Shown here: one piece after another, positions 13,416 through 27,262 of the stretch
Layout: each line of letters opens with the position of its first letter
Numbering within the stretch: position 1 is the stretch's first letter
Source: Acidimicrobiaceae bacterium
GTDB lineage: Bacteria; Actinomycetota; Acidimicrobiia; Acidimicrobiales; RAAP-2
Length of the DNA: 41,682 bases
Assembly (NCBI GenBank): GCA_027315445.1
Contig: DAHUYA010000180.1
Location: 1-41,682 of the forward strand
Direction: 5' to 3'
Notes under the pieces: model-generated
Databases searched by the model: none
What the model was told of the DNA's origin: nothing
What the model saw: only the letters and a program-made list of their open reading frames with translations
Made by a program: the position numbers and the translations under genes

Positions 13416-15845
13416 ATGCATCTCACCTTCTGGCTGCGCTGGACGTGGCGTGACCTCCGCCAGCACCTCGTTCAGGTCCTCGCGATCGCCGCGATCATCG
13501 CCCTCGGCTCCGGCATCTACGCGGGCCTGGGCAGCACGTCGGCGTGGCGGACCCTGTCGCTGGACACCACCTTCTCCCGCCTTCGCGCCCATGACGTCGA
13601 GGTGAGCCTGGTCCCCGGGACCACACTGGGTTCCCGGCAGCTGCGCCGGGCCGTCGAGGCCGCCGGGGGTCGCAGCCTGACCGACAGCGAGACTCGCTTG
13701 GTCGTGTACCTCCCGGTACGGGCCGGACCTCGGGGGAGCGTCCCTGCGGCCGGGGTGATCGTCGGGGTCGATGTCCGCACCGGGCCGCGGATCGACCGGT
13801 GGAAGGTGATGTCCGGTCGCTCGATCGGGAGCTCCGACGCGAACGGCTCGTCGGTGGTCCTCGACGAGCACTTCGCCCAGCAGCACCACCTGCCGCCCGA
13901 GGGCACGCTGACCATCGCGGGGATCCCCGTCACCTACGTCGGGACCGTCCTCGAGCCGGAGTACCTCAACATCACGACGACCCTCGGGGCGACGATCCAG
14001 GGCGCCGCCACCCGGGCCGTGATCTTCGCCCCCATCGGGCTCGTGCAACGGCTGGCCGCGCTCTCGGGTCAGGCCGACGACGTCGTCGCCACGGTGCGCC
14101 CGGGCACCGACGTCCCCCAGCTCGCGCGCTCGATGACCCGGCGGCTCACCACCCTCTTGCCCTTCACGGCACTCACGGTGACCGCCCGCGGGGACGACCC
14201 GAGGACCCTCGCCCTCTACGACGAGGTCGACACCGAACAGAAGATATTCGACGTGTTCGCCCTCCTGCTGCTGGCCGGCGCCGGGTTCGCCACCTTCAAC
14301 CTGACCCGGCGCATGGTCGAGTCCCAGCGACGGGACATCGGCATCTCGATGTCGCTGGGCGTCCCACCCCTCGAGATCGCGATCCGTCCCGTCGTGTTCG
14401 CAGCCGAGGTGGCGGTCATCGGCGCGCTCCTGGGCATCCTCGCCGGATGGGCGATCGGGGTCTGGGTGATCACCATCATCCAGACCCGCACGCCGTTGCC
14501 GTTCTGGACCACGCCCTGGCAGGGCAACCTCTTCCTCCTGGGGGCCGCCCTCGGGTTGGCGATCCCACTGGCCGGGTGTTCCTACCCGGTCTGGCGTGCG
14601 GTCAGGGTGCCACCCACCGATGCCCTCCTCCCGCCTCACCTCCGAGGGACTCGTCACCGTCTCACCGGGCTCTTCCGGGGGATGCCCTTCCCTCGCTCCA
14701 CGATGGCCCAGGCGCCGCTTCGCAGGATCACGATCGCGCCGGTCCGCTCCCTGATGACGGTCCTGGCCATCGCCCTGATCCTGGCGCCGCTCGTGGCCGC
14801 ACTCGGCACAACCGATTCCGCCACGGCCACCATCGACGCGGGGACGGAGATCTTGGCCGGCCGCGGCGGAGACCGCCTGCTCGTGGACCTGAGCAGCTAT
14901 CAGCCGGCGACGTCGTCCACGGTCGCCTCCGTGGTCGGCTCACCCCTGGTGGGACAACACGAGCTCGGCCTCAACACCGGCGGCTACCTCGTCGGGCGCG
15001 GCACGACGATCGGGGTCTCGATCAGCATGGTGGACCTCTCGAGCCCCCTCGTCGTGCCGGCCGCGGTGGCCTCGGCCCGGGTTCCCCCGAATGCCATCGT
15101 GATCTCGTCGAAGGCCGCGTCCGACCTCGGGCTCCAACCGGGGAGCCGGGTGATCCTTCGTCATCCGATCGCCCAGGGCACGGGATACCGCTTCGCGGAC
15201 ACCGCCCTACCGGTCGGCGCGGTCGTGACCACGCCTTATCGCTTCCTCGCGTACATGGACCTACGCGACGAGCGCGTCATGGGACTGTCGGGGATCGTCA
15301 ACACGGCGACCCTCGTTCCACGCCCCGGCGTGAGCATGGACCGACTCCAGCGCAGCATCTCCTCGTTGCCGGGTGTGGCCTCGGCCCTGCCGGCCAGCTC
15401 CCTCTCGAGCACCATGCGGGACATCCTCTCGGCGGTGACGAACTTCTTCATCGTCCTGCAGCTCATCATCGGCCTGCTGGCCTTCCTCGTCGCCTACAAC
15501 AGCTCCAAGATCGCCAGCGACGAGCGGTCCCGCGAACACGCGACCATGATGGCCTTCGGCGTGCGGGTGCGGCAGGTGATCGGGATCGGGGTCGCCGAGA
15601 GCCTCATCCTCGGCATCGTCGCCACCGGTGTCGGGTTCGGACTCGGTGTCCTCTTCTTGCACTGGATCCTCGACACCGTGTTCCCGGCGGCGGTACCCGA
15701 GCTCTCCGTGCTGCAGTCGGTGCGCATCTGGTCGTTCGCCGTGACGGCCCTGATCGGGATCACTGCCACGGCCGCCGCCCCGGTCTTCCTCGCGCCGCGG
15801 CTGCGGCGCTCGAACCTTCCGAACGCGCTCCGTTACGTCGAGTAG
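13416..15845 (+). CDS. ABC transporter permease, FtsX/MacB-like
   Basis: N-terminal TM VLAIAAIIALGSGIYAGL, then extracytoplasmic region and two TM clusters (FALLLLAGAGFATFNLTRRMVESQRRDIGISMSLGV; FIVLQLIIGLLAFLVAYNSSKIASDERSREHATMMAFGV). Confidence 0.88.
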   Translation: MHLTFWLRWTWRDLRQHLVQVLAIAAIIALGSGIYAGLGSTSAWRTLSLDTTFSRLRAHDVEVSLVPGTTLGSRQLRRAVEAAGGRSLTDSETRLVVYLPVRAGPRGSVPAAGVIVGVDVRTGPRIDRWKVMSGRSIGSSDANGSSVVLDEHFAQQHHLPPEGTLTIAGIPVTYVGTVLEPEYLNITTTLGATIQGAATRAVIFAPIGLVQRLAALSGQADDVVATVRPGTDVPQLARSMTRRLTTLLPFTALTVTARGDDPRTLALYDEVDTEQKIFDVFALLLLAGAGFATFNLTRRMVESQRRDIGISMSLGVPPLEIAIRPVVFAAEVAVIGALLGILAGWAIGVWVITIIQTRTPLPFWTTPWQGNLFLLGAALGLAIPLAGCSYPVWRAVRVPPTDALLPPHLRGTRHRLTGLFRGMPFPRSTMAQAPLRRITIAPVRSLMTVLAIALILAPLVAALGTTDSATATIDAGTEILAGRGGDRLLVDLSSYQPATSSTVASVVGSPLVGQHELGLNTGGYLVGRGTTIGVSISMVDLSSPLVVPAAVASARVPPNAIVISSKAASDLGLQPGSRVILRHPIAQGTGYRFADTALPVGAVVTTPYRFLAYMDLRDERVMGLSGIVNTATLVPRPGVSMDRLQRSISSLPGVASALPASSLSSTMRDILSAVTNFFIVLQLIIGLLAFLVAYNSSKIASDERSREHATMMAFGVRVRQVIGIGVAESLILGIVATGVGFGLGVLFLHWILDTVFPAAVPELSVLQSVRIWSFAVTALIGITATAAAPVFLAPRLRRSNLPNALRYVE

Positions 15846-15900
15846 GCGGCTCCCCGGGCAGGCGCCCGCGTGCCACCAGCCAGTTCGTAGGCACATCCGT

Positions 15901-17115
15901 TCACAGTCGCGTCAGGCGCCACACGAGCGACGCCGATCCAAGGCTTCGGGACGTGACGAGGCGAGCCCGGTTGTCCTGGATCGTCCGATGGTCACGAAGG
16001 CCCACCGAGGCCGTCCCGATCGGGTGGCCCTTGGGGATCGGATAGCCGATCCGTGTCGGCACGAAGATCTTGGTCAGGACGTGCTGCCCGGGAAGTCCCG
16101 TGAGCGCCATCGCATGCGACGTCTCGAGAGCGACCGGCGGGCTCCAGGGGGCATCGATATGGCCGAGGAGGGCGCCGGTGTTGAGCACGGTCGCCCGTTC
16201 GAGGAGGTGCCCGGTGCTCGTGAGGAGCGTCTCGGATGCAGTGAAGACGTTCGTGAGGGCACTCGGATGACCGGGCGTCGCGAACTGGCCGAGGTCGACG
16301 CCGACGATGGTCTCGGTGCCCCCCCGCAACGAGGCGGTCGCCGCGAATGCGAAGCACGCCCCGGCCGCCGGCGTGAAGCCGGTCTTCACGCCGACGATGC
16401 CATCCGTGCCGAGCTGGGAATCAACGTTGAACGCCACCCCGGCGACCGGAAGCGTCACCTGGGTCATGGCGACGATCCCCGCGAACACCGGGTTCTGCAG
16501 GGCGGTCATGGTCAGCCGGAGCTGGTCCCGGGCCGTGCTGACCGTCTCGGGAGAGACGCCGCTGACGTCGGCGTAATGCGTGTGGTCGAGGCCCAGCCGT
16601 TGGGCCTCGGCGTTCATCCTGGCCACGAAGGCCGGCACGCTGCCGGCGTCCCAGTCGGCGAGGAGTGTCGCGACGTTGTCGCCGGAGGGAACGAGCAGCC
16701 CTTCGAGGGCCTGCAGCTCGCTCATCTGCTCGCCGACCTGCACCTCGACCACCGAGTCACCGTTCGCCAGGTCCTTCTGGTAGACGGCAACGTCCTGCGG
16801 GCTCACCACGATCTCCGGTCCGCTCGCCGAGATGGCAAGGGGATGGTCCTGGAGCACGACGTAGGCCATCATGATCTTGGTCAAGCTGGCAATCGGCGTC
16901 TCGCTCTGAGCACCATGGGTCTCGAGCACGCCGGACCCCTCCACCCCGATGGCCGACTCGCCCTCCACCGGCCAGGTCGGCGTAGCGGGGACACCGGGCA
17001 TCCTTGCCGCGACGGTGATGGCACTCACCCGCACCCCTGGCACCGGTCGCAGGAGCTGGACGACCACGTAGACGACGGCGAGGAGAACGATCACGAGCAC
17101 GAGCGGGCGGCGCAC
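15901..17115 (-). CDS. serine-type D-Ala-D-Ala carboxypeptidase (peptidase S11 family)
   Basis: PIASLTKIMMAYVVL (SxxK), LVPSGDNVATLLA, VGVKTGFTPAAGACFAFAA (KTG); N-terminal TM/signal anchor. Confidence 0.88.
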   Translation of the reverse strand: MRRPLVLVIVLLAVVYVVVQLLRPVPGVRVSAITVAARMPGVPATPTWPVEGESAIGVEGSGVLETHGAQSETPIASLTKIMMAYVVLQDHPLAISASGPEIVVSPQDVAVYQKDLANGDSVVEVQVGEQMSELQALEGLLVPSGDNVATLLADWDAGSVPAFVARMNAEAQRLGLDHTHYADVSGVSPETVSTARDQLRLTMTALQNPVFAGIVAMTQVTLPVAGVAFNVDSQLGTDGIVGVKTGFTPAAGACFAFAATASLRGGTETIVGVDLGQFATPGHPSALTNVFTASETLLTSTGHLLERATVLNTGALLGHIDAPWSPPVALETSHAMALTGLPGQHVLTKIFVPTRIGYPIPKGHPIGTASVGLRDHRTIQDNRARLVTSRSLGSASLVWRLTRL

Positions 17116-17261
17116 CAGCCCCCATGTTCACACTGGAACCGTCGCATGGGGTGTCGCCCCGAGCACCCCACACGGGTCTGGCCGGGCCCCTCGACGACCA
17201 CGTCTTCGCCACCGGCACCGTCCGGCGAGCCAGCCCTCCTCGATGCAACGAAGTCCTGACC

Positions 17262-17303
17262 ACGACGGCCTGAGCATGACGGCCTGAGCACGACGGCCTG
17301 ACA
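17262..17303. repeat. 14-bp tandem repeat, 3 units, in divergent intergenic region
   Basis: acgacggcctgagc / atgacggcctgagc / acgacggcctgaca. Confidence 0.9.
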
Positions 17304-17340
17304 CTCCTTCACCCCCCCCGGGGCCATAGGGTGCAGTGGC

Positions 17341-18531
17341 GTGCGACGCGGTCGACTCGCCGTCCTTCTCGCGTTCGGGGGAATGGGCCTCCTGGCCGGC
17401 TACTACGCCTTCGTGGCCCCCCCTGCGCCCAGCACCCCACGCCGCCCGATCGACACGCCGCGGTTCGCGAGTGCCGCGCACAGGCAGAGCAGCGCGGCGT
17501 CGGCCAGGGGTCTGCCGTTCTCCTCGCCCGGCGGCTACGCGGCAACCGCCCTGCTCAAACCGGGGCCCAACCTGCAGCCGGGGTCGCAACCGTCCGCGCT
17601 CCCCAGCGACGTCCTCATCGCCGATCGCAACAACAACCGGCTGCTCATCGTGAACCCCCAGGGCAACATCGTCTGGCAATTCCCCCGTCCGGGTGACCTG
17701 GCGCGTGGTCAGACGTTCCTTGCTCCCGACGACGCCTTTTTCACTCCGAGCGGCAAGGACATCATCGTCACGCAGGAGAGCCAGTTCGTCATTTCGGAGA
17801 TCTCGGTCACCACCGACCGGATCGTGTGGCAGTACGGCCACCCGGGGGTCCCCGGATCCGGGCCCGACTACCTCGACAATCCCGATGACGCCATGATGCT
17901 CCCCAACGGCGAGGTCGTCACCGCCGACATCAAGAACTGCCGCCTCCTGGTGCTCGATCCCCCGCACCATTCCCCGGTCAAGATCATCGGCGAGACCACC
18001 TCGTACTGCTATCACCAGCCGCCGGCCCGATGGGGCAGCCCCAACGGGGTGTTTCCGATGACCAACGGGCGTTGGCTCGTCACCGAGATCAACGGTGACT
18101 GGGTGGATCAGCTCAACCTGGCCACGGACCATGTCGCCTGGACGACGAACCCTCCGGGTGTGTACTACCCCTCCGACACCAACGAGATCGCCCCCAACGA
18201 CTTCCTCACGGCCGCCTACACCGATCCGGGCCAAGTCGTGGAGTTCACCTCCAGCGGCCAGGTGCTGTGGCGTTACGCGCCCACGGGTGCGCAGGCCCTC
18301 GATCGACCGTCCCTCGCGCTGCCCCTACCCAACGGCGACGTCATCGTCAACGACGACTGGAACCACAGGGTCATCGTGATCGACCCGAAGACCGACCAGA
18401 TCGTCTGGCAATACGGCCACACCGGGAAGCCCGGCTCGGCTCTGGGATACCTCGACAAGCCGGACGGGATCGACCTGGCTCCGCCGTACTCGTTGACCAT
18501 GACGCACGCTTCCACCATGGGACTGCCCTGA
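17341..18531 (+). CDS. secreted/anchored beta-propeller protein (arylsulfotransferase/PQQ-like repeats)
   Basis: N-terminal TM LAVLLAFGGMGLLAGYYAFVAP; repeated VLIADRNNNRLLIVNPQGNIVWQF, ITVTTDRIVWQYGHPG-type, VIVIDPKTDQIVWQYGHTG blades. Confidence 0.75.
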   Translation: MRRGRLAVLLAFGGMGLLAGYYAFVAPPAPSTPRRPIDTPRFASAAHRQSSAASARGLPFSSPGGYAATALLKPGPNLQPGSQPSALPSDVLIADRNNNRLLIVNPQGNIVWQFPRPGDLARGQTFLAPDDAFFTPSGKDIIVTQESQFVISEISVTTDRIVWQYGHPGVPGSGPDYLDNPDDAMMLPNGEVVTADIKNCRLLVLDPPHHSPVKIIGETTSYCYHQPPARWGSPNGVFPMTNGRWLVTEINGDWVDQLNLATDHVAWTTNPPGVYYPSDTNEIAPNDFLTAAYTDPGQVVEFTSSGQVLWRYAPTGAQALDRPSLALPLPNGDVIVNDDWNHRVIVIDPKTDQIVWQYGHTGKPGSALGYLDKPDGIDLAPPYSLTMTHASTMGLP

Positions 18532-18948
18532 CCGCCGCAGGGTGCATGCCACAGGATTCGCGAGCTCCACGACGACCCCGCCGCCCGTGCAGCCGAGCTG
18601 CGAGGGCGGTGGGGAGGGCTCGTGAGCGACCGCTACATCGGCCGTGAGTACGACTCGATGGACACCGGCCCAGCCGACAACACCGTCACGCTGCGCAGCG
18701 ACACGTGCAACACGACCGGCGGCTTGATGGTCGCGCCGCTGTCCATCAGCTCGCCGGAGGGCGCGGTCGGCTCCGATCGGGAGACGGTGCCGAACCCCGT
18801 GATCTCGGACCGGTGGCTCTCCTCCCCGATCGGCCCCGACACGAGCATGCGGACCTCCACCGCGGAAGCCTTTGGATCACCCCAGGGACCCTTCAGCCGT
18901 TCGGTCCACCCCGATCAACGCTGGGAGCCGTCCACGAACTCGCGTTGA
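18532..18948 (+). pseudogene. possible gene remnant (enzyme fragment of uncertain family, no initiation region)
   Basis: Frame is open directly after the propeller stop: RIRELHDDPAARAAELRGRWGGLVSDRYIGREYDSMDTGPADNTVTLRSDTCNTTGGLMVAPLS; C-terminus loses coding character. Confidence 0.3.
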
Positions 18949-20054
18949 AGGGCTTCGACGAGCTCTTCGCCGTGGTGCCGAACATCACCAAGATCGTGCT
19001 CCCAGTGCTTGGCGTGGCGGGTGAAGAGATGAAGATCGTGCTCCATCATGAACGCCAGCCCGGCGAAGACCTCGTGAGCCCGCTGGGTCATGTGCGCGGC
19101 CGCCCTGCTCGCATGGAGCTTTGCCGCCGCGGCAGCCCGCTGATGAGGCCGCCCGGTGTCGATCAGCCACGCGGCGCGTCGGGCCAGCAGATCCGTGAGG
19201 TGCGATGCGATGCCTATGTCGGTGCAGAGGTACTGCACTGCCTGGTAGGACCCGACTGCCTTCCCGAACTGCTGACGCGACTTCGCGTACTCGACCGTCA
19301 TCTCGAGGATGCGCTCACCTGCTCCGGCCGTCTCCGCCGCCCGGAGCACCGCGCCCCGAGCGAGTGCCGGCGCGAGTTGCGGCCATCCCCCACCTGCCCG
19401 GCCGACGAGCTCGTCGACCTCGACCCCTTCCATCACGACGGCGCACAATGGCAGCGACGCCAGGTTGTCGGTCGGGGTGATCGAGACGCCCGTGGCAGCC
19501 GGGTCCACGAGGACGATGCTCACGCCGTCCCTGTCCCGGACAGTCGCGAGGAGGCGATCCGCGACGTCGGCGAACGGCACCAGGACCTTGGTGCCCGTCA
19601 CCTTCGCCGTGCCACCACTCCGCTCCAACCGGGTCTCGACCCCACGCTCGTCCCACACTCCTCCCGGCTCGAGCAGCGCCGGCGCGACGATCGACGCTCC
19701 GCTTGCCAGCCGACCAAGGAGCTCGGCCACCCGCTGGTTTCCCTCGGCAGCACCGACAAGGACATGGGCTGCCACTACCGACGAGGGAATCAGAGGCGAC
19801 GAGACGACTGCTCGACCCGACTCGAGACACACCGCGTAGAGGTCGAGGATGCCGCCACCGCTCCCGCCATACGCTTCGGGCACGGCGAGGCCGGCCCAAT
19901 CGAGCTCGATCATCGTCCGCCACAATGCCCGAGAGAAGTAGGCCCTCGTCTCGAAGAGCTCACGCGCCAGGGCCAACCCCCCTGCCTGTTCAAAGACTCG
20001 TCGAGCGGTCGCTCCCAGCTCGCGCTGATCGTCGTTCAGGTCGTAGTCGAACAT
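18915..20054 (-). CDS. acyl-CoA dehydrogenase family protein
   Basis: MFDYDLNDDQRELGATARRVFEQ...GLAVPEAYGGSGGG...TVEYAKSRQQFGKAVGSYQAVQ. Confidence 0.9.
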   Translation of the reverse strand: MFDYDLNDDQRELGATARRVFEQAGGLALARELFETRAYFSRALWRTMIELDWAGLAVPEAYGGSGGGILDLYAVCLESGRAVVSSPLIPSSVVAAHVLVGAAEGNQRVAELLGRLASGASIVAPALLEPGGVWDERGVETRLERSGGTAKVTGTKVLVPFADVADRLLATVRDRDGVSIVLVDPAATGVSITPTDNLASLPLCAVVMEGVEVDELVGRAGGGWPQLAPALARGAVLRAAETAGAGERILEMTVEYAKSRQQFGKAVGSYQAVQYLCTDIGIASHLTDLLARRAAWLIDTGRPHQRAAAAAKLHASRAAAHMTQRAHEVFAGLAFMMEHDLHLFTRHAKHWEHDLGDVRHHGEELVEALQREFVDGSQR

Positions 20055-20067
20055 CGGCCCCTGCCCG

Positions 20068-21237
20068 TCAGCGCGGGAGTCCAAGACCGCGGGTTGCCAT
20101 CACCATGCGCTTGACCTGCGGAGTACCGCCAGCATGGTTGTTGATGCCGCGCAAGAACCATTCGGCCGGACGTCCGGTCATCGGCGCGGCCGGGGACTCG
20201 CCCCGAACCTGACTGAGCGGTCCCACGATCTCGCTGATGGTTTGGGAGAACTGCGGTCGCATCTCCTTCGACACGACCGTGTTCAGGGCCCCGCCGAAGC
20301 GAGGGGGCCGCCGGTGCAGGAAGTTCGACAGCCCCTCGTAGCTCAGTACCCGACTGATCTCGGTCATGACGGCCAGCTCGGCGAGCCGCTCCCGCACATA
20401 GGGATCTTCGATCAGCGGACGACCGTAGCGACCGACGGTGCTGCACCAGCGCGTCAGCTCCGCCAAGCGGTTCTCCTGCTCGCACTCCATCCCACCCATT
20501 GGCCCACCCGCGTAGAACGAGCCCATGATGTAGTCCCATCCGTGGCCCACCTCGCCGATGAGGCAGTCGGCGGGAACGATCACGTCGTCGAAGTAGGTGT
20601 GGTTCTGACGACCACCGGCGATGTTGTGAAGCGGTGAGAAGCTCACGCCCGGAGCACGCAGGTCCAGACAGAAGATGCTGATACCCCGGTGCTTCGGTTG
20701 CGCGGGATCGGTCCGTGCGGCCAGATAGAGCACGTCGGCGTGTGTTCCCCACGTCGTGAAGGTCTTTTGCCCATTCACGATCCAATGCTCGCCGGTCCAA
20801 TCTGCGGAGGTGCGCAAGGACGCCAAGTCCGAGCCGGCGTCGGGCTCGGTGAGGCCTTCTGCCCAGAAGGTCTCCATGCGGGCGATCGGCGGGAGGAACC
20901 TGAGCTTTTGCTCATGAGTGCCACCTGCCAGGAGGGCGTTCGCCGCCAGACCCCAACCGATGTGGTTGACGACGGGGGCGTTCGCCCGGATGAGCTCCTC
21001 CCAGAGGATGAAACGGTCGATCGCCGGCCGCGCCAGACCGCCGTACTCCATTGGCCAGGTGAGCCCGATCCAGCCTCTGCCGGCGACCTTGCGGGTGAAG
21101 TCGAGGGCGAACGCCCAACCCTCCTCGTCCTCGTCGTACTCGCTGTTCCAGTCGAAGTCCGCAGGAAGTTCGGCGGTCAGGAACGTCCGCACCTCGTCGC
21201 GCCACTCTTCCTGCTCGGAACTGAATGTCAGGTCCAT
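20068..21237 (-). CDS. acyl-CoA dehydrogenase family protein
   Basis: WPMEYGGLA..., WAEGLTEPDAGSDLASLRTSA, HWIVNGQKTFTTWGTHADVLYLAART; 13-nt gap to downstream paralogue. Confidence 0.93.
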   Translation of the reverse strand: MDLTFSSEQEEWRDEVRTFLTAELPADFDWNSEYDEDEEGWAFALDFTRKVAGRGWIGLTWPMEYGGLARPAIDRFILWEELIRANAPVVNHIGWGLAANALLAGGTHEQKLRFLPPIARMETFWAEGLTEPDAGSDLASLRTSADWTGEHWIVNGQKTFTTWGTHADVLYLAARTDPAQPKHRGISIFCLDLRAPGVSFSPLHNIAGGRQNHTYFDDVIVPADCLIGEVGHGWDYIMGSFYAGGPMGGMECEQENRLAELTRWCSTVGRYGRPLIEDPYVRERLAELAVMTEISRVLSYEGLSNFLHRRPPRFGGALNTVVSKEMRPQFSQTISEIVGPLSQVRGESPAAPMTGRPAEWFLRGINNHAGGTPQVKRMVMATRGLGLPR

Positions 21238-21404
21238 GAGGCCGCGAATCTATCGCTCCACGTGACGAACGAGCCTCATGCCGCCGCCCACCGCCCGGCG
21301 ATCAGCGGATGCTCAGCGCCGTGGTCTGGGCCAACAACTGGTGGAGGAGAAGGCCAGGAGAAGGCCAGGAACAGGCCACCCGGCGACGACGAACTCCCCG
21401 CGCA

Positions 21405-21462
21405 GGGGGCGAGGGAAGGGAACCGGGAACGGGACACGGGCGGGGGGCGGGGCGGGAGGGGG
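21405..21462 (+). other. G-run cluster (potential G-quadruplex)
   Basis: Ten runs of at least 3 G in 58 nt: gggggcgagggaagggaaccgggaacgggacacgggcggggggcggggcgggaggggg. Confidence 0.7.
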
Positions 21463-21834
21463 CCACAGCGGCCATCTACGGGCGCGCCGGGGCGCAGGAC
21501 GGGTCCGGTTGGCACCAGGGCACCCGGCTGCGCATCTCGGAGCCCAGCGGGCTCATGCCAGCCGACAGCCGCATCGTCGCCCTCACCGCAGCTGGGCCCG
21601 ACCGCCTCGTCGTCGAGATCCAAGAGACGGGGCCGGTGGGCTGCCAGATGAGGTGCTTCGATGGCCGGCTCGACGCAGCGGTGCGGCGGGTCGTGAAGAC
21701 GCTCCTTCCCGCCGTTTCGGTCGGCGTGGCCACGGGATCGTCAGGTCAGGGTGTCGGACCCACTGATTCGACCCGCTGACAACACGGTCGATCGCTCACC
21801 GGAGTCCGATCGAGCAGGTGCCCACGAGAGGGGG

Positions 21835-22608
21835 TCAACCGCAACCGGTGTCCGTATCCACGCCACCTATCCTCCCGCCTTGGACGACCCACACGGGCGC
21901 CCCGCTGAAGCCGGTCGCGTTGCAGCTGAGACCGGGTCCCCAGTCGCCGGGGAAGGGTGGCGTGGCTGTGAATCCACGCCCGACGATCTTGTCCCAGGCC
22001 GACGCGTACGAATACACGCCCCAGCTGCCGGACCCGTGCTGCTGCATCTCGTAGGAGATGCCATCGACGGCGTATTGGTTCACGGTCTGGTTCGTCGACC
22101 AGCTGTTGCCCGTTTCGATGTCCGCCCACCACACGCTCGGGGTCTGGTTGCCGGTGAGCGCGGTCGCAGCCGCGTAGGCGGACTCACTGCAGCCGATCTC
22201 CCATGCCTTGGCGTAGGTGCTCTGGTCGTGCCTGGGCAACCCAGCGACGGATGGCCCGGCATAGGTCGCGCACGAAGATGTCACGTCGCGCCCATAGGCA
22301 CCGGCATAGCCGGTGTTGAAGTACAGCGCCGGGCCGGGAGTGGCACCGATACCGGAGGCCGTCGACCACTCGCTCGAAAGGCAGGCGTTCGTCGTGAAGG
22401 GACGCCCGCCGCCAAGACCCACGATGCCGAAGCCACCGGGGGGAGTCTCGCTGCAGTTGGGCTGGGCGACGTCGTAGCCGGTGGAACCCGCCGAGTAGGG
22501 GTTGGCGGTCGATGCACCGGCGGGGACGACCCAGCCGAGCATCACGACCACGGTGACCATCCCGCTCAGCCACCAAGGACGCCGCCACCGGCTGCGTGCG
22601 TTCCTCAT
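21835..22608 (-). CDS. secreted GH25/DUF1906-like (lysozyme-fold-like) protein
   Basis: Signal peptide LSGMVTVVVMLGWVVPAGAS; GYDVAQPNCSETPPGGFGIVGLGGGRPFTTN...WWADIETGNSWS...GYGVYS-type segment; stops at TDTGCG. Confidence 0.7.
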   Translation of the reverse strand: MRNARSRWRRPWWLSGMVTVVVMLGWVVPAGASTANPYSAGSTGYDVAQPNCSETPPGGFGIVGLGGGRPFTTNACLSSEWSTASGIGATPGPALYFNTGYAGAYGRDVTSSCATYAGPSVAGLPRHDQSTYAKAWEIGCSESAYAAATALTGNQTPSVWWADIETGNSWSTNQTVNQYAVDGISYEMQQHGSGSWGVYSYASAWDKIVGRGFTATPPFPGDWGPGLSCNATGFSGAPVWVVQGGRIGGVDTDTGCG

Positions 22609-23159
22609 CGTCACCGTTCCCTTCTGCCAACGTATCGTGCGGCACGGATGGTACCAGCGACTTCTCGGCTCAGGGAACGTCTGGTGGAGCGCTCCGGCTG
22701 GGTTCTTCGTGCTCCTCAGCTCTTTCTGCTTCCGGGTCAACTGCACGTAGATCCCCACCCCCACGCCCGCGGCGACAGGAAGGAACGTGGGGATGATCCC
22801 GCTCGCTTCGTCGGACGGCTCCACTCTCCAGGGGCTGTCATCGCACGACGCATCGCCGAGGTCCGTCGACCCGCTCTGCCGCCCAAGTGCACCACGCTCC
22901 GACAGCGTCGATCAGCGCTGCTACGCCAACGAGTAGTTGGATCATGGCTTCCCCGGAGCTCCCCGACGACAAGAACGACCATGCTGGCAAGGCCGAGCAC
23001 GACGAGGCGCCTCTCGATCCGGGAGCCGGACCGTGGATGTCCGCCTCGTCGGTCTCCCGGCTGGTCGCCACCGAGTCACACTCCGGTGGTACGACGGTGG
23101 TGGATCCACACGTAGAGTCGGCCCCGAACGAAACCTGAAGACCTCGGTGGACGAGTCGA

Positions 23160-23199
23160 GAGCGGACGACGGCGAACCCGCGACCCTCACCATGGCAAG
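23160..23199 (-). repeat. degenerate copy of tRNA-Gly 3' half (candidate distal att site)
   Basis: Minus strand CTTGCCATGGTGAGGGTCGCGGGTTCGCCGTCGTCCGCTC vs tRNA 27189-27232 CTTGCCAAGGTGAGGGTCGCGGGTTCGAATCCCGTCGTCCGCTC: 1 mismatch, 4-nt deletion. Confidence 0.9.
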
Positions 23200-23383
23200 C
23201 TCGAAAAAGAGCCTCGGGGGTTCGGCGGAATGCTGTCCACTGCCTCTCCGTCCATCGAGTTTCCACCCTGTCCTCCGTCCGCCCCTGTTGTAGAGCGCTC
23301 TACTACGACATCGCGGACCTCGATCGGTCACCTGCGACCACGAACTCCCGCGGGCAGAGCCTCCTGGCAGCCGCCTCACGTAC

Positions 23384-23397
23384 GTACAATGTTGTAC
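23384..23397. promoter_or_regulatory. palindromic operator candidate upstream of Phd/PIN TA genes
   Basis: GTACAA-TG-TTGTAC, overlapping a TACAAT -10-like hexamer; outer ACGTAC/GTACGT arms at 23378-23383 and 23404-23409. Confidence 0.55.
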
Positions 23398-23407
23398 ACT
23401 ACTGTAC

Positions 23408-23701
23408 GTGGCCACGATGACGATCAGCGAGGCACGGGCAGCACTTCCCGAAGTGGTTGACCGCGTGGGCAGGGGGGAAGAGATCACGATCACTCGCCAC
23501 GGTCGGCCGGTGGCGGTCGTCGTGCGGCCAGATGCGCTTCGTAGCCGTCGCGCCGAGCAAGCGTTGAGAACGGCAGAGCAGACCCGGGCGCTACTCGAGA
23601 CAGGTCGGCGGAGTGCCCTGTCGCGCGCGACCGGCATCACGGCTGACCGCGCCGACGAGTTGGTGAGCGCGATCAGGACAGATCGAGACGCGCGGCCCTG
23701 A
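23408..23701 (+). CDS. Phd/YefM-type antitoxin (VapB-like partner)
   Basis: MTISEARAALPEVVDRVGRGEEITITRHGRPVAVVV prevent-host-death motif; stop overlaps the PIN gene start. Confidence 0.9.
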   Translation: MATMTISEARAALPEVVDRVGRGEEITITRHGRPVAVVVRPDALRSRRAEQALRTAEQTRALLETGRRSALSRATGITADRADELVSAIRTDRDARP

Positions 23702-24117
23702 TGGACGCGTTCGACGCGGACGTATTGATCTATGCCGCGGTACCCGGCCATCCTCTTGGCACACCGGTGTTGGCGCTGTTCCCCGAGCAGCCGCTCGACG
23801 AAGCCGGCATCTTCGCAGGAGTCGGGTCCACGCTGCTCCTACCCGAAGTGCTCGCCAAGCCGACGCGCGATGGCACCGACGACGAGGTCGCGGTCCTCGC
23901 TGCACTGCTCGCCCGACTCGATCTACGCCCCGCCGACGAGGCGATCGCCACGCTTGCCGTGGCGCTCGGTTCCTCGTACGGGTTGAGGCCAACGGATGCC
24001 ATCCATCTCGCCACGGCTGTGTGCGCCTGCGCCGACCGCTTCATCACCAACAATCGACGCGACTTCTCTCAGTCGATCGAAGAGGTCTCGGTCACGTATC
24101 CGACAGACCTGCCGTAG
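23701..24117 (+). CDS. PIN-domain toxin (VapC-like ribonuclease)
   Basis: MDAFDADVLIYAA...E...GLRPTDAIHLATAVCACADRFITNNRRDF PIN signature. Confidence 0.9.
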   Translation: MDAFDADVLIYAAVPGHPLGTPVLALFPEQPLDEAGIFAGVGSTLLLPEVLAKPTRDGTDDEVAVLAALLARLDLRPADEAIATLAVALGSSYGLRPTDAIHLATAVCACADRFITNNRRDFSQSIEEVSVTYPTDLP

Positions 24118-24540
24118 CGCTCCGGGCCGGGTCGAAGGAGTTCGCATTCGTCTGCAACGCGTCAGTCACTCGGACCCTTCCCCCAAGGTTCTCCCCGCCT
24201 CCAGCCGTTCTGACGCCAGCCGAATAGATGGCGTGCTCATCGCGAACACCCACCGCCAGGAGACCACGCGTCGATGCGTCCGGCTCGGCGTAGACCAGCC
24301 GGAATCGCCGGGTCGGACTGTCCGGTAGGTCGCATTTCACACTCGCGAGGCCGGTCAGGTCACCACTCCCGTGACGCACCCCGAGGGCCTTCCCCGTGAG
24401 ACGGCCGTGGGCGAGGTCATCGAGCACGACCCGCAGCGCGGCAATGACCTCCGGGCCGTAGGACGCCATCGCCGACAGATCGTCTGCAGTCCCGGGTGCG
24501 CCAGGAGGCCGAAGCGGGGATGTGGCGACCGGCCTGTCAC
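24092..24540 (-). pseudogene. RelE/ParE-like toxin with an apparent 1-nt frameshift near 24490
   Basis: GTG 24540 overlaps antitoxin TGA; frame A VTGRSPHPRFGLLAHPG, then frame B TADDLSAMASYGPEVIAALRVVLDDLAHGRLTGKALGVRHGSGDLTGLASVKCDLPDSPTRRFRLVYAEPD. Confidence 0.6.
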
Positions 24541-24785
24541 CGAGTCCGGGCGGCGTCCTCGGCCGCCCGGTCGAGCGCGGCGTCCAGCTGCTCGGCGCTC
24601 AGCCACGGTCGCTTGTCGGCCAGACGCTCACGGGCCACCTCGCGGTCCAGGTCGTCCTCGACTGCCGCCAGCAGGCGCTCCCACGTGGCGATGGGCACCA
24701 GCACTGCCTGGGGCCGGCGATGCGAGCCGAAGAACACCGGCTCGGTGTCGCCCGCGTCGAAACGCCTGGTGATCTGGCCAACCAC
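24537..24785 (-). pseudogene. N-terminally truncated Phd-like antitoxin
   Basis: ITRRFDAGDTEPVFFGSHRRPQAVLVPIATWERLLAAVEDDL matches the middle/C-terminal part of Phd-type antitoxins; its start lies in transposase-derived sequence. Confidence 0.65.
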
Positions 24786-24786
24786 G

Positions 24787-25111
24787 CCTCGGCCAGACGA
24801 CCCAGACGGAGCAGGTCGGCCAGGTCCTCTGCGTCACGGGTGTTCTTCACCCGCCGGTGCCCCCAGTCGTTGCCCAGGGGATGGGCGAGATGGACGTTGC
24901 AGCCAAGCTCTTTGAGCAGGTCTGCCGCCCAGTACCAGCCGTAGGCGGCTTTCAGGACGACTTCGGGGTGCTCACCGGCGGCGGAAACCGCCCTCGAGAA
25001 GGGCGCCGCGTGTTCGTTCATAACCTGGGTGACGTCGACGGTGTTGCCCTCCTGGTCACGCCGCACGATCACACTGCGGCGGCGGTGCAGGTCGATACTG
25101 AGCGGGACACG
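24787..25111 (-). mobile_element. IS110-family (DEDD) transposase N-terminal remnant
   Basis: LSIDLHRRRSVIVRRDQEGNTV...VVLKAAYGWYWAADLLKELGCNVHLAHPLGNDWGHRRVKNTRDAEDLADLLRLGRLAEAWLA; ends abruptly. Confidence 0.8.
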
Positions 25112-25214
25112 TCAGGTCCCGTGGGTCGGCGCCCGGGTCCCGCTCCTCTGTTTGCGGGCCCTCACGCGAGAGCGGCGAGGCGCTCCTTCATCACATCAAC
25201 AGTTTTGCAAGAAC

Positions 25215-26483
25215 TCACCAACGACGAGGTACACGGCGAGCTGGTTCGCTCGTGCGAGGGTCACCTTCAGGACTTGCCAGCTGGCGCTCCAGGTCCGTAA
25301 ACGCAGCAATGATGTCCGGTGCTTCGTACGCACGGTTGCGTCGTCCGATGTTCACCTGGCGCAGTACACCTGCTTTCACCAGCTGGGTGACGGCATTGTT
25401 CGCTGCAGGGTACGTCCTGTCGATGAGGGCAGCAGCACTGTTCACGGTCACAACTGGTGCACCGAGGAGAGCACGGAGCAAGATGTCGGCCGCAGAGTTC
25501 CTTCGGACAGACGGTATTCGCTCCCGCCACCCCCTCTCGATTTCTCGGGTTCGCTCCTCGAAGGCATCAGCATCGGCAACAGCACGGACGCAAGCCCCTG
25601 CAAACTGGGCGATCCATTGGTTCATACCGACGTGTGCTTCTTTGGATGTCGATGGTCCTCGATAGCGAGCACCAGTCAGACCGTTGATGTACGCCTTCGC
25701 CCAGGTGGCAAGGATCAGGGAAACGGGAGGAAGGACCCGCAGTGCCAAGCCTCGTCGTCGAAGCACGAGGTGAATGAGGGCACGTCCTGTTCGTCCGTTG
25801 CCGTCCACGAACGGGTGGATGGTCTCGAACTGGGCATGGGCAATGGCAGCTTGCGCAACAGTAGGGAGTGAGCCGTTGTTGCAGAAGGTGCAGAGATCGG
25901 CCATGAGGTCTCCGACAAACTCCGGAGGGGGAGGGACGAAGGCTGCAGAGCACGGGTTGTAGGAGCCACCACCGATCCAGTTCTGTTCCTCACGGAACCG
26001 TCCGCCATAGGATTCAAGCCGTGTTCCGGCAAGGAGGCGACGGTGGACATCGAGCAGCAGGTCCACCGTGATCTGGTCCCCCTCGCCAACGGCTTCGATG
26101 CCGAAGACCATGGCATCGATGTTGCCGAGCACCTCGGTTGCTGTGACATCGGATGGAGCTTCTCCGAACCCTCTCCCGACCTCAGCGTGCAGGAGTCGCC
26201 GGGCTCCGATGTCCAGCCCCTCGATCCGGGAGGAGGCGACCGCCTCGGCCCGAAGTAGGATGCGAGCCAGAGCCTCAGTATCGGTGAGGGCAGATGCCTG
26301 AACGTTCAACCGATGGATGGCAGCCTCTGCATCAGCAATTTCGGCAGCAACGCCCCCGTCTAGGGAGAAGCTCCTGCCTACGAGCAGGTCAGGGATGTAC
26401 GCCTCGTACTCGCACGAGCGGCGATCTCCCTTGGTCTGACCCGAGTAGTCGCTGATCCAGCGTCGTCGAACAACCTTTGACAT
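25215..26483 (-). CDS. Fic family protein (AMPylation-type catalytic motif), C-terminal winged-helix-like region
   Basis: HPFVDGNGRTGR core motif; SSRIEG matches the (S/T)xxxE(G/N) inhibitory motif; C-terminal AALIDRTYPAANNAVTQLVKAGVLRQV. Confidence 0.95.
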   Translation of the reverse strand: MSKVVRRRWISDYSGQTKGDRRSCEYEAYIPDLLVGRSFSLDGGVAAEIADAEAAIHRLNVQASALTDTEALARILLRAEAVASSRIEGLDIGARRLLHAEVGRGFGEAPSDVTATEVLGNIDAMVFGIEAVGEGDQITVDLLLDVHRRLLAGTRLESYGGRFREEQNWIGGGSYNPCSAAFVPPPPEFVGDLMADLCTFCNNGSLPTVAQAAIAHAQFETIHPFVDGNGRTGRALIHLVLRRRGLALRVLPPVSLILATWAKAYINGLTGARYRGPSTSKEAHVGMNQWIAQFAGACVRAVADADAFEERTREIERGWRERIPSVRRNSAADILLRALLGAPVVTVNSAAALIDRTYPAANNAVTQLVKAGVLRQVNIGRRNRAYEAPDIIAAFTDLERQLASPEGDPRTSEPARRVPRRW

Positions 26484-26493
26484 GGAATCTCCT

Positions 26494-26522
26494 TATGGAA
26501 GGTTATTCTACAACCTTCCATA
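26494..26522 (-). promoter_or_regulatory. perfect 11-bp inverted repeat (7-nt loop) upstream of fic start
   Basis: Minus strand TATGGAAGGTT-GTAGAAT-AACCTTCCATA followed by AAGGAGA and ATG; TAGAAT -10-like hexamer in the loop. Confidence 0.65.
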
Positions 26523-26537
26523 CTCGGAATCCATATT

Positions 26538-26973
26538 GTGGTTTACGAACCTGCCCGCCCTGCGCTCTCCAGCATCCTCTCCAGTGCGATCTTCGGGACG
26601 AGGATGCGCAACCTCCCGGTCCTTGGTTGCGTGCTGGTAGATGAGTTGCTCAGGTCCTTGTCGCCGAGCGTCGGCTTGATGTGCAACCGGAGGTTCGTCT
26701 CGTACTGCTCCTGGCTGCGGGGCCGAAGGCTCGGCTTCTTCTGTTCGAGCCACTTGTCGGCGTACTCCCGGAGCGGGATGCGTCCCTGCTCCGGAGAAAT
26801 CCAGGTTCCTCGCTCGATGTCTGCCCGTGTTGCGGCCAGGAAGGCCTCTGCGTCCCGTTGGTCTTGTAGGTGGCGGGAGCAGCCCGCCACGGACCATCGG
26901 CCCGGTAGCGGGCCTGCCAGCGCCCTGAAGGCAATTTCCGGGTGCTGCCCCATGAGCTGCGGTTCCGAGTCAC
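26538..26973 (-). pseudogene. tyrosine recombinase (integrase) remnant, frameshifted and lacking the catalytic domain
   Basis: Frame A SSWGSTRKLPSGRWQARYRADGPWRAAPATYKT, then frame B RDAEAFLAATRADIERGTWISPEQGRIPLREYADKWLEQKKPSLRPRSQEQYETNLRLHIKPTLGDKDLS. Confidence 0.8.
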
Positions 26974-27137
26974 GACCGCAGCCTCCAGCTTACGAAGGAC
27001 TGAGTCAGTGTCGCCCAGGTACCGGAACCACGCCGGAAAGTGTCAAACAGGTGCCGGAACCACGCCGTCAAGCATGAACCGGAATTTCACAGAGTCCTTG
27101 TGGCGCGTATGTGGCACGGACCTGTTGTGGCATGCGA

Positions 27138-27161
27138 AAGGGGCTCCAGACGGAGCCCCTT
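27138..27161 (-). terminator. candidate terminator downstream of tRNA-Gly
   Basis: Perfect 10-bp stem AAGGGGCTCC-GTCT-GGAGCCCCTT, 28 nt past the tRNA 3' end; short T-run. Confidence 0.6.
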
Positions 27162-27189
27162 GCACTCGCCTGGCCTGGACTTTCTCTGG

Positions 27190-27262
27190 AGCGGACGACG
27201 GGATTCGAACCCGCGACCCTCACCTTGGCAAGGTGATGCTCTACCAACTGAGCCACGTCCGC
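27190..27262 (-). tRNA. tRNA-Gly (anticodon GCC)
   Basis: Cloverleaf GCGGACG TG GCTC AGTTGGTA GAGC A TCACC TTGCCAA GGTGA GGGTC GCGGG TTCGAAT CCCGT CGTCCGC T. Confidence 0.96.

Follow-up and report, generated by a model that had tools for sequence, protein, structure and literature searches.

Our study identified, between positions 23160 and 27262 of a 41,682-nucleotide stretch of DNA from an Acidimicrobiaceae bacterium (the window), what is very probably the remnant of an integrative element inserted in a tRNA-Gly(GCC) gene. The original prediction, made from the sequence alone, had read this region as a fossil tRNA-integrated element, and that reading is supported by related integrases found at tRNA-Gly, by an arm motif at a fixed spacing from tRNA fragments and by the recurrence of tRNA and fragment pairs in other genomes. 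The element belongs to a known kind, the tDNA-integrated island, in which integration splits a tRNA gene, which the island restores, leaving the displaced fragment as the marker of its far end (PMC4383910). It is a well-preserved example, new as a member of this kind, and its mechanism is ordinary; our literature search, which covered open-licence papers, returned no description of this island family. The features of the element are listed in Table 1.

Table 1. Features of the element remnant, from the tRNA gene to the far end (coordinates are those of the window)
Feature	Position	Strand	Details
Intact tRNA-Gly(GCC), putatively restored target gene, attL side	27187..27262	-	ARAGORN and Rfam
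Left arm, directly downstream of the tRNA	27097..27186	-	Starts GAGAAAGTCCAGG; contains a direct repeat of type GTGCCACAtacGcGCCACA
Inserted repeat, about 85 bp	27007..27091	.	GAGTC direct repeats on either side (27002-27006, 27092-27096)
Tyrosine integrase remnant	26603..26979	-	Frameshift near 26858; 697-nt internal deletion between 26646 and 26645, with the G032 gene as reference
Fic protein, 422 aa, intact	25215..26483	-	HPFVDGNGRTGR motif; SSRIEG inhibitory-helix-like motif; Pfam Fic (2e-21), Fic_N
IS110-family transposase remnant, N-terminal part	24776..25096	-	Match to a G007 ORF
Antitoxin-like ORF (Phd/RelB type)	24537..24785	-	5' end replaced by the IS110 piece
125-aa ORF beside the antitoxin-like ORF	24092..24469	-	Toxin partner by position only
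PIN-domain toxin, intact	23701..24117	+	Pfam 6.1e-8; G068 homologue 77% aa
Phd/YefM antitoxin, intact	23408..23701	+	Pfam 2.6e-15
Right-arm motif	23281..23304	-	AGTAGAGCGCTCTACAACAGGGGC; 105 bp inside the tRNA fragment
Displaced tRNA-Gly 3' fragment (attR)	23160..23199	-	tRNA positions 31-74; 4-nt deletion in the T-loop region

In the origin that we propose, a tyrosine integrase would have recombined attP with the part of the chromosomal tRNA-Gly(GCC) that runs from the anticodon loop to the 3' end, with the crossover probably in the anticodon loop; the element's own 3' tRNA half would have restored the gene, and the displaced 3' half of the host would have been left behind at the far end. The cargo aboard would have been of the addiction type, comprising the Phd/PIN pair, the antitoxin-like ORF with its neighbour, and Fic. 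Decay would have followed, presumably in this order, through an IS110 insertion that was cut down to a fragment, the insertion of the repeat of about 85 bp between the tRNA and the integrase, the frameshift and the 697-nt deletion in the integrase, and the 4-nt deletion in attR, and the element is probably immobile at present.

The tRNA gene, its displaced fragment and the attachment arms

ARAGORN and Rfam agree on a single tRNA in the window, the tRNA-Gly(GCC) expected on the minus strand, at 27187/27190-27262. The partial copy of its 3' half was reproduced as well: 39 of 40 bases are identical, with one mismatch and one 4-nt gap, and the copy lies 4.0 kb downstream of the 3' end of the tRNA, on the same strand and in the same orientation, so that the intact gene stands at the integrase end and the fragment at the far end, as had been described. 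The local alignment score of this copy is 64, compared with no more than 31 at any other place in the window and with a best score of 32 in 60 Markov-shuffled windows. The match is not dispersed in the genome: in the whole 2.9-Mb source assembly (G000), which is fragmented and 81% complete, this is the sole copy of the 3' half (E 2e-9), and the remaining matches to tRNA-Gly resemble other tRNA genes or are short T-arm matches. The distal junction of the window, CTC|TCG, is similar to the sequence that follows the 3' end of tRNA-Gly in G002, G082 and G088, whose tRNA-Gly genes do not have the CTCCA-arm, as is expected for the host side.

Special consideration was given to the sequences inside the fragment. 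The 24-nt right-arm motif AGTAGANCGCTCTACAACAGGGGC occurs in 6 of 172 family genomes (at most 3 mismatches), and in G000, G001, G041, G042 and G080 a tRNA-Gly 3' fragment lies 99-105 bp downstream of its start; as a control, the reversed motif pattern gave a single match in each of four among the other 167 genomes and none in these five. Motif and fragment occur together at three loci of G042, one of them with a shorter fragment, and under looser matching three further fragments of G041 have the motif at 101-102 bp, while in G042 and G050 a few matches to the motif stand without a clear fragment alongside. Beyond the motif, the 150 nt inward from the fragment are 73% identical to the corresponding region of a G042 fragment, and part of them is 80% identical to that of a G080 fragment. 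Given this fixed spacing, we conclude that the window copy is a true right attachment site. It is extremely improbable that the copy arose as a stray duplicate of the 3' half of the tRNA, without any link to integration: its imperfection would suit such an origin, and tRNA fragments may also arise by other routes, but the copy lies downstream in the same orientation with an integrase remnant in between, and the conserved arm that it has in common with the fragments of other genomes contradicts this reading.

At the opposite end, the left arm is also found 3' of tRNA-Gly in G032 and at three further loci (L190, L191 and L193), and it is 93% identical to that of G032 over 171 nt, tRNA included. 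The repeat of about 85 bp is missing from the G032 arm, which is otherwise collinear, and a further copy (79%) is present in the same genome as the window, at C131:8227-8318 (L207). Its absence from G032, its 5-bp flanking repeats and a copy that G005 has beside a tRNA-Ala arm point to a small mobile repeat, and the segment 27002-27096 is possibly such a repeat or an IS end. We had also considered the insert as part of the attachment arm, since in three genomes it lies about 95 bp away from att sites, and dropped this idea. In other genomes, relatives of the repeat (L044, L045, L110, L116) lie near the attachment arms at tRNA-Gly and tRNA-Ala.

The integrase remnant, its intact relatives and known islands

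The tyrosine recombinase remnant proposed next to the tRNA was recognized by Pfam (Phage_int_SAM_3, 6.7e-11) and has an intact relative at the same tRNA in G032 (JAJZBS010000017.1), a genome of the same order and another family, where a 391-aa tyrosine integrase (Pfam Phage_integrase, 4.3e-20) lies about 117 nt after tRNA-Gly. Remnant and intact gene are 91% identical in nucleotides over 349 nt, whereas the neighbouring genes of the two genomes have protein identities of 46% (acyltransferase, DGAT), 69% (dUTPase, dut) and 66% (oligoribonuclease, orn); this difference indicates that the element moved by horizontal transfer. The mutated state of the gene, which had also been anticipated, is evident in the lesions given in Table 1: the deletion takes out the catalytic arginine, the lysine and the HxxR region and spares only a segment with the likely tyrosine (LIYQHATKD), these residues being assigned by motif, and the predicted product of the window copy cannot be an active enzyme.

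In four other MAGs (L190, L191, L192 and L193), some of which are named Acidimicrobiaceae bacterium, tRNA-Gly(GCC) has an intact relative of the integrase, of 70-88% amino acid identity, as its neighbour. Among 28 more distant homologues (about 43-60%), the short stretch around each gene contained tRNA-Gly in 16 cases, another tRNA (Ala, Glu, Leu) in 5 and none in 7. No viral contig matched the integrase query. Both arms and an integrase are now given for an island group in a little-studied lineage, some of whose carriers are named Acidimicrobiaceae.

Among the closest known counterparts are the Islander islands of the anticodon-centred (A) attP class, which likewise have an intact tDNA with a downstream 3' fragment in the same orientation, a tyrosine integrase in between and a crossover region that starts in the anticodon loop (PMC4383910). 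The window has the intact tRNA gene and its cognate fragment on the same replicon, and the 4.0-kb distance falls within the Islander range of 2-200 kb; it differs from these islands in the small internal deletion of its fragment and in the integrase between tRNA and fragment, of which only a broken remnant is present, one that may fail the Islander integrase filter. Since the integrase is only a remnant, we filed the window as the remnant of a tDNA-integrated island. The islands of G032 and G551, two Actinomycetes MAGs, have the same integrase family, tRNA and left arm as the window, but their integrase is intact and their cargo is other, and in G551 the fragment is 38 kb distant and has another right-arm type.

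In actinomycetes, integrative and conjugative elements of the pSAM2 type and temperate phages also have a tyrosine integrase that acts at the 3' end of a tRNA gene. Unlike them, the 4-kb element shows neither conjugation genes nor phage structural genes in the ORFs that were examined: Pfam and NCBIfam gave no phage structural or lysis genes among the main ORFs between the att sites, and the main ORFs of 23160-27186 include no relaxase or FtsK-type transfer gene, so that it is classed neither as a prophage nor as an integrative and conjugative element.

Cargo genes and composition

Toxin-antitoxin modules were expected in the cargo, and the Phd/YefM and PIN-domain genes were both assigned by Pfam; of the second pair, the antitoxin-like ORF has a partner by position only, and this 125-aa ORF had no match in Pfam or NCBIfam. 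The predicted Fic gene was likewise recognized. It keeps its active-site motif, and its dN/dS against its closer homologues is 0.06-0.13, with synonymous sites near saturation. The IS110 remnant was supported in part: taken alone, the piece is weak in NCBIfam (E 0.064), but it aligns to an IS110-like transposase ORF of G007 (L104), over the N-terminal part. In this decaying element the TA-like and Fic genes have outlasted the integrase. The GC content of 23160-27189 is 64.4%, and that of the flanks 69.6% and 73.7%. Just upstream of the Fic gene, at 26494-26522, there is a palindrome of the TATGGAAGGTTNTAGAATAACCTTCCATA type, a possible operator.

tRNA-Gly(GCC) as an insertion site in related genomes

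In many relatives the insertion target is one full tRNA-Gly(GCC), usually beside an acyltransferase-dut-orn group. We found no empty site that has these flanks: with the left-flank DNA (14000-23159) and the protein encoded at 21835-22821 as queries against 172 family genomes, homologues appeared only on contigs without the tRNA, and the left-flank genes sit elsewhere in relatives of other genera. A match between G086 and G073 near a lysozyme-like gene was considered as synteny and dropped because it falls in ABC-transporter-like genes.

A full tRNA and a 3' fragment in the same orientation occur on one contig in G067 (3.8 kb apart), G086 (3.2 kb, with integrase pieces), G080 (3.6 kb), G041 (5.9 kb) and G551 (JAKATT010000177.1). 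On this last contig the integrase is intact, and the full tRNA and its exact 43-nt fragment, in the same orientation, are 38 kb apart; this 38-kb stretch also holds housekeeping-like genes and may not be one element. Three genomes with one full tRNA-Gly(GCC) have several 3' fragments, five each in G041 and G042 and three in G047 (L219, L220, L222, L243-L248), which we read as putative tandem island arrays. The 3' fragments found begin at tRNA position 22-32, and after several of them comes a fresh left arm (AAAGTCCAGGTCA), a sign that islands may be stacked in tandem at tRNA-Gly. In this actinobacterial family, tRNA-Gly(GCC) is thereby confirmed as a hot spot of repeated insertion.

It is important to consider that the 4 kb of the window may be a composite of two islands of such an array, a deletion having joined one island's left end to the other's right end. 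This refines the preferred explanation and is not its opposite, and we regard it as possible but somewhat doubtful: arrays are known in the relatives just described, and the left and right arms belong to classes that differ in distribution, with G551, of the left-end class, having another right arm; however, no internal tRNA fragment is left in the window, and G042 has both right-arm types together with a related integrase, which means that the classes are not exclusive.

It is less probable still, and in our judgement unlikely, that the element was an islet without its own integrase, moved in trans, and that the integrase scrap comes from a different, later island. The units of G067 (3.7 kb) and G080 (3.5 kb), in which no integrase was detected, would fit this, and G080 has the right-arm type of the window, but these units may have lost their integrase or may use an unrelated one, and a matching integrase remnant is present in the window. 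A broader speculation, to which we give little credence, is that the type-A right-arm islands at tRNA-Gly(GCC) in this family would be arrays of small TA islets, mostly without their own integrase and dependent on a resident tRNA-Gly integrase for integration in trans, somewhat like cassettes, with the window containing a decayed one. Our preferred reading remains that of a decayed tRNA-Gly island.

Both units lie in the interval from tRNA-Gly to its 3' fragment and carry toxin-antitoxin genes: that of G067 (L107:5246-8976) contains a HicA-like toxin, and that of G080 (L126:3093-6637) a HepT/nucleotidyltransferase. In G554 (L198), a 5' half of tRNA-Gly (1-48) adjoins a partial integrase and the 3' half (32-76) lies 1.2 kb away; this tRNA locus was apparently damaged as an island decayed.
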